Of a DNA stretch of 35,883 nt, positions 17,495 through 26,191 are shown in pieces. How positions within the stretch are numbered: the stretch's first letter is position 1; the number at the start of each line of letters is the position of its first letter. The notes below the pieces were generated by a model. The model saw nothing but the letters and a program-made list of their open reading frames with translations. It was not told the DNA's origin and did not search any database. The position numbers and the translations under genes are program-made. The stretch comes from a bacterium. Lineage in GTDB: Bacteria > Bacillota_I > Bacilli_A > RF39 > UBA660. The stretch lies in the NCBI GenBank assembly GCA_029218465.1, contig JAQXRJ010000031.1, positions 1 through 35,883 of the forward strand, given 5' to 3'.

Positions 17495-17548
17495 TGTTTT
17501 ATATGGACATTTGTGATAGCATATTACTCATCGAAAGAGGGAACTTTT

Positions 17549-19771
17549 ATGTATGAAGATGTTATATTAAAATGCATTCATGAAATCAGTGATGATGAAG
17601 AAAAAAATTTTCTTGTAATTAAAAAATATTTCAGCAATTATAATATTTCGATTGATGATATTTATTCTGAAATTTGTAAATGGATTAAAGAAGAAATGCT
17701 AATATATGAGAGATATGCAACGCCGTTGTTAATTTCTCTTATTAATAATGGAGTTGATTTTTATAGACCTGGTCTTTATGAAGATTCAGTTTTATTTGAT
17801 ACATTATGTTTGGGTTTTAAACTTGAAAACTTTAAAAAAATATTAAATGCATTTATAAAAAACGGTCTAGATATTAATAAAAGATTTAAATCACAAAATA
17901 AATCGTATTCAATTTTAGAATATTTAATGCTTTCAGACAATTATAAAGAAGATATATCAGAAATATATATGCTATTAATTGAATGTGGATATAAAACGAC
18001 GCTTAAGGATACTTTTTTTGATGAATATTTTAAAAAACAGGATTATTCTTCTAGCAATTATATTCAATCAATGAAAGACAAAGTCAAAGCAATTTACGAT
18101 AGGGAAATAAGAAAAAATAGTATAAATATTGATGAAAAAATAATTAATTCTGATTTAACAACTAAGATAAAATATGCAATAGATAATGTTAACTCCGACA
18201 TAGAAGTCAATTCTTTGTTAATTAATCAATTATTTGGAGATATAAATAATAAATATGGAGTAAATAACAATAGTCTTATTCAGAGAATTTTATTAGAAGA
18301 GAATCTAAATGAATCTAATCTATTAGAATTAATAGAAACAATATTATATTGTGGAGTAGATGCCAATTATATTAATTCTGATTGTAATTGCATGATTACA
18401 ACAGCACTACATTCAAGCTATAGCGAAAAATTTATATTGGAATTAATTTCTATTGCAGTATTATATGGTTATGATATAAACAATAAGCATAATAATAATA
18501 CAACTATTTTACATTCAGCAATGTTATGTCCAAGATGCATTGATATATTAAAGTTTTATGATTATTTAATTGTTCTTGGTTATGATTCAACTATTTTGTA
18601 TCAAGATAATGATAAATATGATTATAATTTAGAAGATTGTCTTTTATATGCTAGTTTGTGTAATCAAAATCACGTTGGTGAAAAGTGGTATGATGAAAAA
18701 TATAGTAAAACAGTTTTTGCAAAATTTGAAGAGAAATATCACGGTATAGTGGAAAAAAATGATAATAAAAAAATCAAAGATAATGGATTAGACGATATTG
18801 AAATCAATGATCCACCTATTGAAAAAATAAATTTATCAGAGAAAAATTTAGAGATTATAGAAAAATATGGAAAAATTCTTAATTACAATAATTATATATC
18901 TGATCCTGCTATAGGAAGAGAGAATGAACTCAGAAAAGTAGAGGTTGCACTTGCTTCTATGAAAAAAATGCCAATATTAGTCGGAAATGCTGGTGTAGGA
19001 AAAACTGCGATTGTAGATTCTTTGGTTTATAATATAAATAATAATAATGTCCCTAAATTCTTAAAAGATCAAATAATTCTTGAGATAAATGCTAATTCTC
19101 TTGTTGCTGGAACAAGCTATAGAGGAGAATTTGAAGAAAAATTGGAAGAATTATTTAAAGAATGTAGTGAAAAAAATATAATATTATTTATAGATGAAAT
19201 ACATACTATATATGGTGCTGGAGTATGTAAGGATGAATCAAATGATATGGCTTCTGTATTAAAAAAATATATAGATAAGAATAATCTTAAAGTGATAGGA
19301 GCAACCACTGATTATGAATATAATAAGTTTTTTTCTAAAGATGCTTTAAAAAGAAGATTTTTAAGAATTGATGTTAAAGAACCCAAAGAAGATTTATTAA
19401 AAATTATAATTCCAAAAGTAATAGATGATTATAGTGTTTTATATGGAATAAATAAAACAAAAAATGTACAGAAGAAAGAATTTATTCATTTGTTAATTGA
19501 AAGTACAAAAATTAATCATAGAGTTTATGACGATAGGGTTAATAATCCAGATTTAGTAATATCTATTATAGATATTGCTTATGCATATGCTAAATTTGAA
19601 GATAGTGATGAAATTAATATTGGACATTTTATTAAAAGTTTTGAAGATTGTGATAGATTATATGATGCTTCAAAAGAAGATGCAATTATGAAATTAAATA
19701 AACTTAATCAATGTAATAAAAATATAGAAAATCAAAAGTGTAAAATAATTAAATTTCCTTGTTTAAAATAA
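17549..19771 (+). CDS. Ankyrin-like repeat / single Clp-D1 AAA+ ATPase fusion
   Basis: The N-terminal ~400 residues contain degenerate ankyrin-like helix pairs, for example ILNAFIKNGLDINKRF, ETILYCGVDANYIN and ISIAVLYGYDINNKHNNNTTILHSAM. Residues ~437 to the end match the first AAA+ module of ClpA/B/C: IGRENEL, Walker A GNAGVGKT (~479-486), pore loop SYRGEFEEKL (~523), Walker B FIDEIHTIYGAG (~547) and the paired arginines in ALKRRF (~602). There is no middle coiled coil and no second AAA+ ring. The key ATPase and pore residues are intact, so it may be an active ring remodeller with repeats selecting the client. ATG 17549 follows AAAGAGGGA; the track's GTG start is upstream of that site. Function is unknown. 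Confidence 0.82.
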   Translation: MYEDVILKCIHEISDDEEKNFLVIKKYFSNYNISIDDIYSEICKWIKEEMLIYERYATPLLISLINNGVDFYRPGLYEDSVLFDTLCLGFKLENFKKILNAFIKNGLDINKRFKSQNKSYSILEYLMLSDNYKEDISEIYMLLIECGYKTTLKDTFFDEYFKKQDYSSSNYIQSMKDKVKAIYDREIRKNSINIDEKIINSDLTTKIKYAIDNVNSDIEVNSLLINQLFGDINNKYGVNNNSLIQRILLEENLNESNLLELIETILYCGVDANYINSDCNCMITTALHSSYSEKFILELISIAVLYGYDINNKHNNNTTILHSAMLCPRCIDILKFYDYLIVLGYDSTILYQDNDKYDYNLEDCLLYASLCNQNHVGEKWYDEKYSKTVFAKFEEKYHGIVEKNDNKKIKDNGLDDIEINDPPIEKINLSEKNLEIIEKYGKILNYNNYISDPAIGRENELRKVEVALASMKKMPILVGNAGVGKTAIVDSLVYNINNNNVPKFLKDQIILEINANSLVAGTSYRGEFEEKLEELFKECSEKNIILFIDEIHTIYGAGVCKDESNDMASVLKKYIDKNNLKVIGATTDYEYNKFFSKDALKRRFLRIDVKEPKEDLLKIIIPKVIDDYSVLYGINKTKNVQKKEFIHLLIESTKINHRVYDDRVNNPDLVISIIDIAYAYAKFEDSDEINIGHFIKSFEDCDRLYDASKEDAIMKLNKLNQCNKNIENQKCKIIKFPCLK

Positions 19772-19781
19772 TTAGAAATCA

Positions 19782-19810
19782 TTGAATTTAATATTTTTTT
19801 GTTATAAAAT
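19782..19810 (+). promoter_or_regulatory. Promoter of the hisS-aspS operon
   Basis: TTGAAT, 17 nt, TAAAAT, just before the T-box leader. Confidence 0.55.
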
Positions 19811-19814
19811 ATAA

Positions 19815-19999
19815 GTAACTTCTTTGGGAAGAGTAATTATTACTTTTATTTTAGAGAGATACTGTTTGGTGAAAAGTATTATGAATTTATAATGAAGACA
19901 CCCATAATTTTGAAGTCGTATGTCTGCGTTAAAGATTAAAGAGTAAAATAAAAGGTGGCACCGCCCGTAAAGGGCCCTTACATAGTGTTATCTTTTTTT
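19815..19999 (+). promoter_or_regulatory. T-box riboswitch, Asp-type specifier, controlling hisS-aspS
   Basis: Stem I can be drawn directly: ACTTC (19818) pairs with GAAGT (19912), TGGG (19825) with CCCA (19901), and ATTAT with ATAAT around the specifier loop, whose 5' side is AAGAGTAA. AGAGAG and GGTGAAAAG lie in the upper stem. By the spacing of known T-boxes (codon, one purine, then helix) the specifier is GAC (19897-19899), Asp; CAC (His) overlaps it two bases later. The T-box core is AGGTGGCACCGC (19953). Its TGGC pairs with a GCCA acceptor end, that is discriminator G as in tRNA-Asp; tRNA-His has C. A GCCC/GGGC hairpin, outer AAAGAT/ATCTTT arms and T7 form the terminator. Uncharged tRNA-Asp should switch the operon on. 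Confidence 0.92.
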
Positions 20000-20020: not shown

Positions 20021-21364
20021 ATGATAACAAAGCCAAAAGGATGTATTGATTTAAATGGACTGGAAGCAAAAAAATGGAAATATGTTTCTAAAGTAATTGA
20101 TTCATTGATGGAAAAGTATAACTATAATTATATTCGTACACCAATTTTTGAATCGAGTGAAGTATTTCATAGAGGTGTAGGAGAGACTACTGATATTGTA
20201 TCTAAGGAAACATATGACTTTATAGATAGAGGTGGCAGAAAAATGACTCTTCGTCCTGAAGGAACTGCAGGAGTTGTTAGAAGCTTTGTAGAAAATAAGA
20301 TGTATGGAGATCCAAATCAACCTGTTAAACTATACTATAATGGAACAATGTATAGATATGAAAGACCACAAGCAGGAAGAGATAGAGAATTAACTCAATT
20401 CGGTGTTGAAGTATTAGGAAGTGATGATCCTTTAATAGATTCTGAAGTTATTTCTATACCTGTTAATTTATTTAAATTGCTTGGTTTAAATGAAGTTAAG
20501 GTAAAAATTAATACTTTGGGAGATAAAGAATCTCGTAATATGTATAGAGATGCATTGATAAAATATTTTAAACCTCATCTTAAGGATTTATGTGAAGATT
20601 GTAATAGTCGTTTTGAAAAAAATCCAATGAGAATATTAGATTGCAAAGTTGATAAAGATAGTGATATTTTAAAGAATGCTCCAAAGACTATTGATTATTT
20701 AAATGAAGATTCTAAAGAAAGATTTAATAAAGTTAAAGAATATTTATCAGAGTTGGAGATTGATTATGAAATAGATGAAAAGTTAGTTAGAGGACTTGAC
20801 TATTATAATCATACTGTATTTGAAGTTGAAGCAAGCGTAGCTGGATTTGGCTCAAATAACGTTCTAGCAGGAGGTGGAAGATATAATGGACTTGTTGAAC
20901 TTTTAGATGGACCATCAACACCTGGTATGGGATTTGCACTAGGAATGGGAAGGCTAATAATGGCTTTAGAACTTGAAAAAATTAAACTTCCAATAGATGA
21001 TGAAGTTGAAGTGTTTGTAATGTATGTTTCTGATACTGAGAAGAAATATGCTGCTAGTCTTGTTCAAATGTTAAGAATGTACGGTTTCAAAGTTGAAACA
21101 GAATACACAGGAAGAGGATTAAAAGGACAATTTAAGCAAGCTGACAGATTAAATGCAAAGTATTTGATAATATTAAATGACGAAGACTTATCACATGATG
21201 AAATAAAGATTAAGGATAATAAAACAAAAGAGGAAAATCTAGTAGGAATAGATTATATTATGTATTATTTAGATGAAATGTTATCTAAAGAAGATGATTG
21301 TTGTTGTGATGATGATTGTGACTGTGGTGTAGATTGCCATTGTCATGATGATATAGAATTTTAA
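20021..21364 (+). CDS. hisS: Histidyl-tRNA synthetase with Cys-rich C-terminal tail
   Basis: This class II synthetase charges tRNA-His. Motif 2 is YRYERPQAGRDRELTQFG, the histidine-binding block is LVRGLDYYNHTVFE, and motif 3 is GMGFALGMGRLI. An anticodon-binding domain follows (VEVFVMYVSDTEKKYAASLV...). The last ~24 residues are an added tail with seven Cys and two His interleaved with Asp (DDCCCDDDCDCGVDCHCHDD), which looks like a metal-binding appendage and is not part of the normal fold. ATG 20021 after GGGAGG is the start; the track's GTG at 19955 lies inside the T-box. It is first in the operon with aspS, and no terminator separates them. Confidence 0.96.
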   Translation: MITKPKGCIDLNGLEAKKWKYVSKVIDSLMEKYNYNYIRTPIFESSEVFHRGVGETTDIVSKETYDFIDRGGRKMTLRPEGTAGVVRSFVENKMYGDPNQPVKLYYNGTMYRYERPQAGRDRELTQFGVEVLGSDDPLIDSEVISIPVNLFKLLGLNEVKVKINTLGDKESRNMYRDALIKYFKPHLKDLCEDCNSRFEKNPMRILDCKVDKDSDILKNAPKTIDYLNEDSKERFNKVKEYLSELEIDYEIDEKLVRGLDYYNHTVFEVEASVAGFGSNNVLAGGGRYNGLVELLDGPSTPGMGFALGMGRLIMALELEKIKLPIDDEVEVFVMYVSDTEKKYAASLVQMLRMYGFKVETEYTGRGLKGQFKQADRLNAKYLIILNDEDLSHDEIKIKDNKTKEENLVGIDYIMYYLDEMLSKEDDCCCDDDCDCGVDCHCHDDIEF

Positions 21365-21441: not shown

Positions 21442-23184
21442 ATGAAGAAATATAATAATGGAGAATTTACAATAAATAATGTGGGTGATAAAGTTGAACT
21501 TTTTGGATGGGTTCAAAAGAAAAGAAATTTAGGTGGATTAGTATTTATAGATTTAAGAGATAGATCAGGTATTATTCAGTTAGTTGTTAATCCAGATAGT
21601 AAATACTATGATTTAGCTTCTTCTTTAAAAAGTGAATCAGTAATAAAAGTAACTGGTAAAGTGTTTGAAAGACAAAGCAAAAATACTAAGATTCCAACAG
21701 GAGAAGTTGAAGTAATAGTTGATAGTTTAGAGTTAATTAACAAATGCGAGGATATTCCATTTGAAATAACTAATGATTCAACTGCTCTTGAGGATACAAG
21801 ACTTAAATATAGATATTTAGATATTAGAAGAGATAATATAAAAAATAATTTGATTTTAAGACATAAAGTATGTATGATTACTAGAAATTTTTTATCTAAT
21901 AATGGATTTGTTGAAGTGGAAACACCAATATTATGTGTACCAACACCAGAAGGTGCGAGAGACTATTTAGTGCCTTCAAGAGTATTTAATGGTAGATTCT
22001 ACGCACTTCCACAATCACCACAAATATATAAGCAGTTATTAATGATAGGTGGTATGGAAAAATATTTCCAAATAGCAAGATGTTTTAGAGATGAAGATTT
22101 AAGATCTGATAGACAACCTGAATTTACTCAAATAGATATTGAAATGAGTTTTGCAAATGAAGAAGATATTTGGTCAATAGTTGAAGGTTTAATGAACGAT
22201 ATTTTTAAACAAATTAAAAATGTTAAGTTAGATAAATTTCCAAGACTTACTTACAATGAATGTATGAATAGATTTGGTAGTGATAAGCCTGATACTAGAT
22301 TTGAAATGGAATTACAAGATATAAGTGAAATATTTAATAACACTACTTTTGAAATATTTAGAAATATATTAAATGAAAATGGCATTATTAATGCAATAGT
22401 ATTAAAAAATAAAGCCGATTCTTTGTCAAGAAAAGACATTGATAAATTAACTGATTTGGTTAAAGTATATAAAGCTAAAGCGTTATCTTATTTAAAGTAT
22501 AATGATAATGAACTAACTGGATCAATATCTAAGGTTCTTAGTGATAAAGAAAAACAAGATTTAATTATTAAATTAGGTTTGTCTAATAATGATATGGTAT
22601 TTATAGTTGCAGATAAGAAGAATATCGTACAAGCTTCACTAGGTGCTTTGAGACTAAACTTAGGAAAAAAATATGGACTTATTGATACATCGAAATATAA
22701 TTTTTTATGGGTAACAGAATTTCCAATGTATGAATATTCTGAAGAAGAAAATAGATATGTTGCCGCACATCATCCGTTTACTTCACCTAGATTAGAAGAT
22801 ATGGATAAACTATTAACTGATCAAGAAAATTGTTATTCAAGAGCATATGACTTAGTGTTAAATGGATATGAGCTTTTAAGTGGATCTGTTAGAATTCATG
22901 ATAGTCAAACTCAAGCAAAAGTTTTTGAAGCAATCGGATTATCTGAAGAAGAAGCAAAAAGAAAATTTGGATTTTTCTTAGATGCATTTAAATATGGTGC
23001 GCCTCCTCATTGTGGGGTTGGCATTGGCCTTGAAAGATTAATCATGATATTATCTAATACAGATAATATTAGAGATGTAGTTGCTTTTCCTAAAACTGCA
23101 AGTGCATCATGTTTAATGAGTGAGGCTCCAGGTGTTGTAGATGAAAAGGCTCTAAATGATCTTGGAATTAAATTAAATAAATAA
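21442..23184 (+). CDS. aspS: Aspartyl-tRNA synthetase
   Basis: This class II synthetase charges tRNA-Asp. The N-terminal OB-fold anticodon domain contains VELFGWVQKKRNLGGLVFID. Motif 2 is FRDEDLRSDRQPEFTQIDIEM, and the bacterial insertion (GAD) domain lies in the middle. The C-terminal HHPFTSPR and the motif 3 block GIGLERLIMIL complete the active site. At 580 residues it is full length and of bacterial type. GAAAGG precedes the ATG. It shares the T-box with hisS, and the leader's Asp specifier fits this second gene better than the first. Confidence 0.97.
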   Translation: MKKYNNGEFTINNVGDKVELFGWVQKKRNLGGLVFIDLRDRSGIIQLVVNPDSKYYDLASSLKSESVIKVTGKVFERQSKNTKIPTGEVEVIVDSLELINKCEDIPFEITNDSTALEDTRLKYRYLDIRRDNIKNNLILRHKVCMITRNFLSNNGFVEVETPILCVPTPEGARDYLVPSRVFNGRFYALPQSPQIYKQLLMIGGMEKYFQIARCFRDEDLRSDRQPEFTQIDIEMSFANEEDIWSIVEGLMNDIFKQIKNVKLDKFPRLTYNECMNRFGSDKPDTRFEMELQDISEIFNNTTFEIFRNILNENGIINAIVLKNKADSLSRKDIDKLTDLVKVYKAKALSYLKYNDNELTGSISKVLSDKEKQDLIIKLGLSNNDMVFIVADKKNIVQASLGALRLNLGKKYGLIDTSKYNFLWVTEFPMYEYSEEENRYVAAHHPFTSPRLEDMDKLLTDQENCYSRAYDLVLNGYELLSGSVRIHDSQTQAKVFEAIGLSEEEAKRKFGFFLDAFKYGAPPHCGVGIGLERLIMILSNTDNIRDVVAFPKTASASCLMSEAPGVVDEKALNDLGIKLNK

Positions 23185-24400: not shown

Positions 24401-24421
24401 TAGATAAGTGGGTTGATTGAT

Positions 24422-26191
24422 ATGATTGGAAAAATAATTAATATAGAAGAAGACAATGTTATAGTTAAATTAGAAATAGATATATCTAAGCAATCTAATT
24501 TAGTAAATGTTCATGTTATTTTTGAAAGTAATAATGAAAAAATCGTTGGTGAAATTAGAAGTATTTCTCTTGATACAGCAAAAATTGCGGTAGTTGGACA
24601 AATAACTAATAATATTTTTACACCTGGAGGTCTAAAAAAACCATCTTTTTCTTCGATTGTTAGAATAATCAATATGGAAGAATTAGAACTAATATTAGGA
24701 AAGCAAACTATAACTGGTAACGATCAAATTACATTAGGTTATTCTACAATATATAATAATTATAAAATAAATATTGGAATTAATTCATTTTTTAGTAATC
24801 ATTTTGCAATTTTAGGAAATACTGGTTCTGGTAAAAGCTTTACTGTATCAAGACTTATTCAGAATATATTTACAAGTAGTAATTATGTACCTATTAATTC
24901 AAATATATTTATATTTGATGCATACGGTGAATATAAGAATGCCTTTTCAAGATTAAATGAGATATCTCCTATGTTAAATACTAAATGCTATACAACAGAT
25001 ACTATCTCTCCTGATAGTGAAATTTTTAAAATTCCATTATGGTTGTTAAAAACTGATGATATTGCTCTTTTATTAGAGGCAAGTGTCCCATCTCAACTAT
25101 CAATTATTGATAAAGCGTTAAGACTTGTTCCTATAATAAAAGGAAATGATGGAGAATCAATTAAGCATTGTAATGATATTATTGCAAGAGCAATATTAGA
25201 TATACTTAAGAGTGGTAAAGATACTATTAAAATTAGTGATCAAATAAAAGCAATATTATCAACAGTTTCTACTCCAACACTAAATCTTGATACTATAATT
25301 GCACAACCAGGATACAATAGACCATTAAAACAATGCTTATTTGTTGATAATAATGGTAAAATGCTTGAAATGGAATTAGTTACAAATTTTATGTCAACTT
25401 ATTTAATAGACGGACTTGTTGAGCCAGTTGCGAGAGAAGATGTAATGTATACTCTTAAGGATTTAGAAAAAGCAATGGAGTTTGCACTTATTTCAGAAGG
25501 CATATTAAAAAGCGATAAAGTATTTGATTATGCTAATATTTTAAGTGTAAGACTTCATACTTTAGTAAATAGTGAATGCAATACATTTTTTGAATATGAT
25601 AGGATGATATCAAGAGATGAATATATTAAAAGTTTAATAACAACAAATGATGGTAAAAAAGCTCAAATTATTAATTTTAATATAAATTCTGTTAATGATA
25701 GAATGGCAAAATCAATAGTAAAAATAATATCTAAGTTGTTATTTGATTTTTCAACAAAGAATAAGAATCGAGCAAGTATACCATTTCATATAATTGTTGA
25801 AGAAGCCCATAGATATGTTCAAAATGATATTGATGCTGAACTTCTTGGCTATAATATATTTGATAGAATTACTAAAGAAGGAAGAAAATATGGGATACTT
25901 CTTGGACTTATAACTCAAAGACCTAGCGAACTTAGTGATACATCGATTTCACAGTGTTCTAACTTCCTAATTTTAAGAACACTTCATCCTAAAGATTTAA
26001 GATATATTAAAGAAATGGTACCTAACATGAGTGAAGAGGTTATATCTATGCTTAAGACATTACAGCCTGGAAATGCAATTGGATTTGGAAGTGCTTTTAA
26101 GGTTCCGACGAATGTCAAAATTGAAAAACCAAATCCTGAACCATTAAGTAATAACTGTGACGTTGTAAAAGTTTGGTATAGTAATAACTAA
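24422..26191 (+). CDS. HerA-like hexameric ATPase (DUF87 family)
   Basis: Residues 1-~95 form a beta-barrel (HAS-type) domain. The RecA-like motor follows with Walker A GNTGSGKS (~134-141), FIFDAYGEY after it, a second acidic block IVEEAHRYV (~459), then KYGILLGLITQRPSELS and CSNFLILRT, all typical of HerA/FtsK-superfamily DNA translocases. Archaeal HerA works with the nuclease NurA in end resection; bacterial versions often sit in defence modules with other effectors. No NurA, Sir2 or nuclease gene is adjacent here, and sepF follows under a separate promoter. ATG 24422 is used in place of the track's TTG nine bases earlier. An active ATPase is likely; the partner is unknown. Confidence 0.85.
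   Translation: MIGKIINIEEDNVIVKLEIDISKQSNLVNVHVIFESNNEKIVGEIRSISLDTAKIAVVGQITNNIFTPGGLKKPSFSSIVRIINMEELELILGKQTITGNDQITLGYSTIYNNYKINIGINSFFSNHFAILGNTGSGKSFTVSRLIQNIFTSSNYVPINSNIFIFDAYGEYKNAFSRLNEISPMLNTKCYTTDTISPDSEIFKIPLWLLKTDDIALLLEASVPSQLSIIDKALRLVPIIKGNDGESIKHCNDIIARAILDILKSGKDTIKISDQIKAILSTVSTPTLNLDTIIAQPGYNRPLKQCLFVDNNGKMLEMELVTNFMSTYLIDGLVEPVAREDVMYTLKDLEKAMEFALISEGILKSDKVFDYANILSVRLHTLVNSECNTFFEYDRMISRDEYIKSLITTNDGKKAQIINFNINSVNDRMAKSIVKIISKLLFDFSTKNKNRASIPFHIIVEEAHRYVQNDIDAELLGYNIFDRITKEGRKYGILLGLITQRPSELSDTSISQCSNFLILRTLHPKDLRYIKEMVPNMSEEVISMLKTLQPGNAIGFGSAFKVPTNVKIEKPNPEPLSNNCDVVKVWYSNN

Follow-up and report, generated by a model that had tools for sequence, protein, structure and literature searches.

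The window analysed here, a stretch of 35,883 nucleotides, is part of a genome assembly of 1.25 Mb (202 contigs, 89% complete) that contains nine T-boxes and is most closely related to uncultured gut and rumen Bacilli. It carries the synthetase genes hisS and aspS, preceded by a T-box leader with the following elements:

19782 to 19810, forward strand: weak candidate promoter TTGAAT-17-TAAAAT, from a consensus scan only
19811 to 19982, forward strand: T-box leader (RF00230; cmscan, 93.1 bits, E 2.6e-19, model positions 1-219 of 219)
19825 to 19828, forward strand: stem I arm 5′ of the specifier loop, UGGG (CM alignment; register and covariation in 43 leaders)
19829 to 19835, forward strand: 5′ strand of the specifier loop, AAGAGUA (sequence)
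19897 to 19899, forward strand: specifier codon GAC (Asp), followed by A19900 (CM alignment; GAC in 49 and GAU in 1 of 50 leaders)
19899 to 19901, forward strand: CAC (His) outside the register, regarded as incidental; its last base, C19901, tops the 3′ arm
19950 to 19999, forward strand: intrinsic terminator, whose 5′ arm AAAAGGUGGCAC includes UGGC (fold of -16.7 kcal/mol, z -2.9)
19952 to 19979, forward strand: antiterminator, AAGG/CCUU and GCCC/GGGC around the bulge UGGCACC (CM alignment; fold of -8.8 kcal/mol)
19956 to 19959, forward strand: UGGC, predicted to pair with the GCCA end of uncharged tRNA-Asp with G73 (sequence; tRNA sequences)
20021 to 21364, forward strand: hisS (TIGR00442, 462.6 bits)
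21442 to 23184, forward strand: aspS, bacterial type (NF001750, 823.9 bits)

The operon is flanked by a HerA/VirB4-like ATPase and a Clp-like AAA protein (24413-26191 and 17513-19771 of the window), both matches being far below the curated cut-offs. The C-terminus of HisRS (21281-21361) forms a Cys/His/Asp-rich, metallothionein-like tail, SKEDDCCCDDDCDCGVDCHCHDDIEF. At least eight Cys and His residues past residue 415 are present in 43 of 80 related HisRS (L040-L119), with a maximum of 33 in L050, and a literature search on such a metallothionein-like HisRS tail gave no match. This tail is probably more unusual than the Asp T-box itself.

The covariance-model match spans the whole element, its 93.1 bits comparing with an RF00230 gathering score of 93. 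Stem I with its specifier loop, the AG bulge (AGAGA), the distal loop (GGUGA) and, in the antiterminator, a UGGN-type bulge are all present; this bulge, read from the sequence as TGGCACC at 19956-19962, offers UGGC as complement to the GCCA end of tRNA-Asp. At the base of stem I, TGGG (19825-19828) is paired with CCCA (19901-19904), and the 3′ strand of the specifier loop consists of GAA (19894-19896), GAC and A19900. When stem I was folded alone, the minimum free energy structure lacked the canonical stem, so the stem I assignment rests on covariation. Such a missing stem is common for T-boxes. The promoter consensus scan found three candidates versus 2.2 expected by chance.

A simple terminator scan of the window detected no terminator, and because of this an SD-sequestering translational switch was considered. 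It was rejected, since the fold shows a terminator of 12 bp that contains an internal hairpin and has a T-run. Positions 19950-19961 pair with 19985-19996, and the T-run extends to 19999. Terminator and antiterminator have positions 19952-19979 in common and are mutually exclusive folds. In 42 of 46 hisS leaders (L040-L085) the terminator uses the 5′ strand of the antiterminator, UGGN included, as its own 5′ arm; among the family's remaining T-boxes only 20 of 125 do so. With UGGN inside this arm, the tRNA acceptor end would be in competition with the terminator for these bases.

The original prediction had placed the specifier at GAC followed by A, as set by the TGGG/CCCA pairing, and had proposed a covariance-model alignment as a check. 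In this alignment GAC falls on the model's own consensus specifier position and CAC is out of register. For comparison, 50 hisS leaders in which the AGUA loop is clear were collected, 48 of them from relatives or the wider class, together with one from Listeria and that of the window. The specifier and the next base read GACA in 48, GACG in one and GAUA in one. In an alignment of 43 distinct rows (A1), 95.3% of the stem I cells are paired in the register GAC-A-stem, a value somewhat favoured by the selection of the rows with a pairing-aware parser and by the limitation of codons to GAC/GAU. Sliding the register by one to three columns leaves only 25.6-52.9% of cells paired. All four stem pairs vary on both sides across the 43 leaders, and the one next to GAC-A is A-U in 25, G-C in 16 and unpaired in two; these two-sided changes are not an artefact of row selection. 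AGUA is invariant in A1 because the rows were picked by this motif, and as the rows are related sequences the shuffle control does not represent a probability. Leaders upstream of aspS without hisS (L127, L191, L214) likewise read GAC, in the context GACAU. As far as comparative sequence data can tell, the Asp reading of the window leader is well supported.

The tRNA sequences were obtained by Rfam search. tRNA-Asp(GTC) of this genome carries G73 (3′ end ...CGAGACC-G-CCA), and in tRNA-His(GTG) G-1 is encoded and the discriminator is C73, in agreement with the discriminators named in the original prediction. The same bases are found throughout the family genomes, with G73 in 16/16 tRNA-Asp and C73 plus encoded G-1 in 21/21 tRNA-His. 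The UGGC contact had been taken as a second, independent pointer to Asp. One part of this argument stands, as the predicted contact excludes Watson-Crick pairing with C73 of tRNA-His. The other part does not, since G73 is also present on tRNA-Asn, tRNA-Ser(TGA) and tRNA-Gln(TTG) of this genome, and UGGC alone is thus no proof of Asp. The discriminator-facing bulge base is C or U in 66 of 66 scored leaders, and in none of them G, which would pair with C73. In the 42 hisS leaders mentioned above the UGGC bases are also engaged in the terminator helix, which may be part of the reason why the C is kept. Independence from the discriminator contact is described for His T-boxes, and TBDB omitted the discriminator for them on the grounds that C73 may form a pair (PMC7778990), so that the discriminator counts less strongly against His.

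The linkage survey comprised 63 hisS loci with a T-box. An aspartyl-tRNA synthetase gene is next in 62, and the remaining locus meets a contig end, so that linkage is complete in the assessable loci (62/62); this fits a switch belonging to aspS. The 62 synthetases divide into 31 of bacterial and 31 of archaeal type. Some T-box hisS loci had been listed as lacking aspS, an assignment that was rejected because they carry the archaeal-type gene. By motif search, no T-box was detected at 44 further hisS loci with aspS, and none of the nine hisS loci without aspS has an Asp-type T-box. Together with the register, the covariation and the genome's own tRNAs, this linkage supports the original prediction that tRNA-Asp would be the effector although hisS is the first gene.

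The survey of relatives yielded several further observations. The same Asp T-box is located upstream of hisS whether the following aspS is of the bacterial or of the archaeal/non-discriminating type (NF003483), as seen in L044, L049, L071, L100 and 27 other loci. The hisS-aspS T-box at L077:3320-3464 has an apparent ultrashort stem I, UGUAAG-AAAGGUGACAG-CUUACA, with Asp GAC in the loop and without a distal loop; its genome otherwise has full-length T-boxes, and a pattern search for such a stem in 291 family genomes revealed no second case. GAC T-boxes in L170 and L219 precede genes that are not obviously synthetases, with a nitroreductase-like start downstream in L219. A 6S RNA match above the gathering score lies at L083:7637-7821.

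As had been pointed out, GACAC also contains CAC, two bases downstream of the GAC register, and a sliding or dual reading had been considered conceivable. Such a dual-specificity T-box, with tRNA-Asp reading GAC, tRNA-His reading CAC at +2 and either shortage inducing both synthetases, would suit an operon encoding both enzymes, and indeed CAC or CAU occupies +2 in 47 of the 50 leaders (CAU 29, CAC 18; CGU, CAG and UAC once each). However, this second codon does not lie inside the unpaired specifier loop: its third base, C19901, is held in the stem by G19828, at a position that covaries with its partner. Nor is it kept beyond structural expectation. Six relatives have lost the overlap but kept the Asp codon, three within the 50 leaders (L069 GACGU, L083 GACAG, L096 GAUAC) and three outside (L255 GACAG with a U-G pair, L272 GACAA, Paenibacillus L319 GACUU). 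CAC or CAU is found at the same place in 18 of 23 family NNC-A T-boxes for other amino acids, which include Asn (10/10), Phe, Tyr and Leu, and the difference between 47/50 and 18/23 is not significant (Fisher p 0.10). The excess in hisS leaders is greater against all NNC leaders (18/33 with overlap), where G often follows the codon in Phe and Leu leaders and lowers the proportion. The regex/pairing parser applied to all T-boxes misparsed some non-Asp leaders, and a parse was counted only if it had AGUA and GAA as well as four or more pairs; its filter also demanded A or G behind the codon, and the purine at this position is hence not used as evidence. Since the overlap occurs in T-boxes of other amino acids and in the aspS-only leaders, it needs no function. 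It arises when an NNC specifier is followed by the usual purine A and then by a pyrimidine atop the 3′ arm, and on this comparative evidence the overlapping His codon is an ordinary by-product of T-box structure. Furthermore, CAC would be followed by C or U instead of the usual purine, and a +2 shift is beyond the frames considered by TBDB (-1, 0, +1). Dual binding of tRNA-Asp and tRNA-His thus appears unlikely, and we give very little credence to the dual-specificity T-box. Equally improbable would be a dual sensor where tRNA-His gains access to CAC by briefly melting the G-C pair at the top of the stem, so that histidine shortage causes weak induction beside the Asp control.

With the hisS-aspS T-boxes (RF00230) of Bacillus, Lactobacillus, Listeria and Staphylococcus the window shares gene order, the GACAC/GACAU region and the transcriptional architecture, whereas it has UGGC in place of UGGU and a terminator 5′ arm that takes in UGGC; the Listeria leader (L318) reads GACAC and UGGU. 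The tRNA-dependent transamidation operon of C. acetobutylicum reportedly has a two-codon T-box. The likeness is that the specifier strand has room for two overlapping codons, but the second codon of the window takes one of its bases from the stem, lacks conservation as a His codon and is equally frequent in T-boxes for unrelated amino acids. As an Asn/Glu switch, the C. acetobutylicum element is a precedent for dual reading (Saad 2013, cited in PMC7778990). A proposal for hisS-aspS itself, two alternative structures by which both tRNAs are sensed, is credited to Gutierrez-Preciado 2009 in PMC4342826; PMC5313534 cites the same work for the suggestion that this T-box mainly interacts with tRNA-Asp. 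GACAC is described as characteristic of hisS-aspS T-boxes (PMC5313534). The motif and the dual-reading idea are therefore already published, and the window is an ordinary further case.

The S. aureus hisS-aspS T-box has been called a histidine T-box (PMC7927825), and an effector tRNA-His read at CAC would agree with hisS being the first gene and with the presence of CAC. Yet CAC is out of register, GAY is kept in the six relatives that lost the overlap, UGGC/UGGU mismatches C73, and the same element precedes aspS alone. The hdc-linked hisS has a T-box as well (Martin 2005, cited in PMC5313534), but there, unlike in the window, CAC is the specifier itself and no aspS follows. Indeed, hisS without aspS on the Tetragenococcus halophilus plasmid pHDC (L321) shows CAC in register, then A and the arm UCUA, with UGGA in the bulge; as the Rfam alignment is one base off here, this reading relies on visual inspection of the pairing and on PMC5313534, where CAC is reported for genes of this type. 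A histidine T-box in the window is hardly credible, even less so than dual reading.

With the element, its register, the tRNA bases, their conservation and the gene linkage established in this analysis, we are highly confident that the leader represents a canonical transcriptional (class I) T-box with single specificity for tRNA-Asp. Binding of tRNA, sensing of its charging and antitermination are inferred from the known T-box mechanism. The GUC anticodon of uncharged tRNA-Asp would pair with GAC in the specifier loop of stem I and its GCCA end with UGGC, and this binding would stabilise the antiterminator and allow transcription into hisS-aspS. Charged tRNA-Asp would be unable to do so, and the terminator would form. 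In this operon hisS would merely be carried along with aspS. T-boxes of hisS-aspS operons have variously been called histidine, aspartate or dual; register, covarying stem base and aspS linkage all say Asp, and the comparative evidence settles this recurring ambiguity. It is implied that hisS in these bacteria would be induced by a shortage of Asp-tRNA and not by a shortage of histidine.
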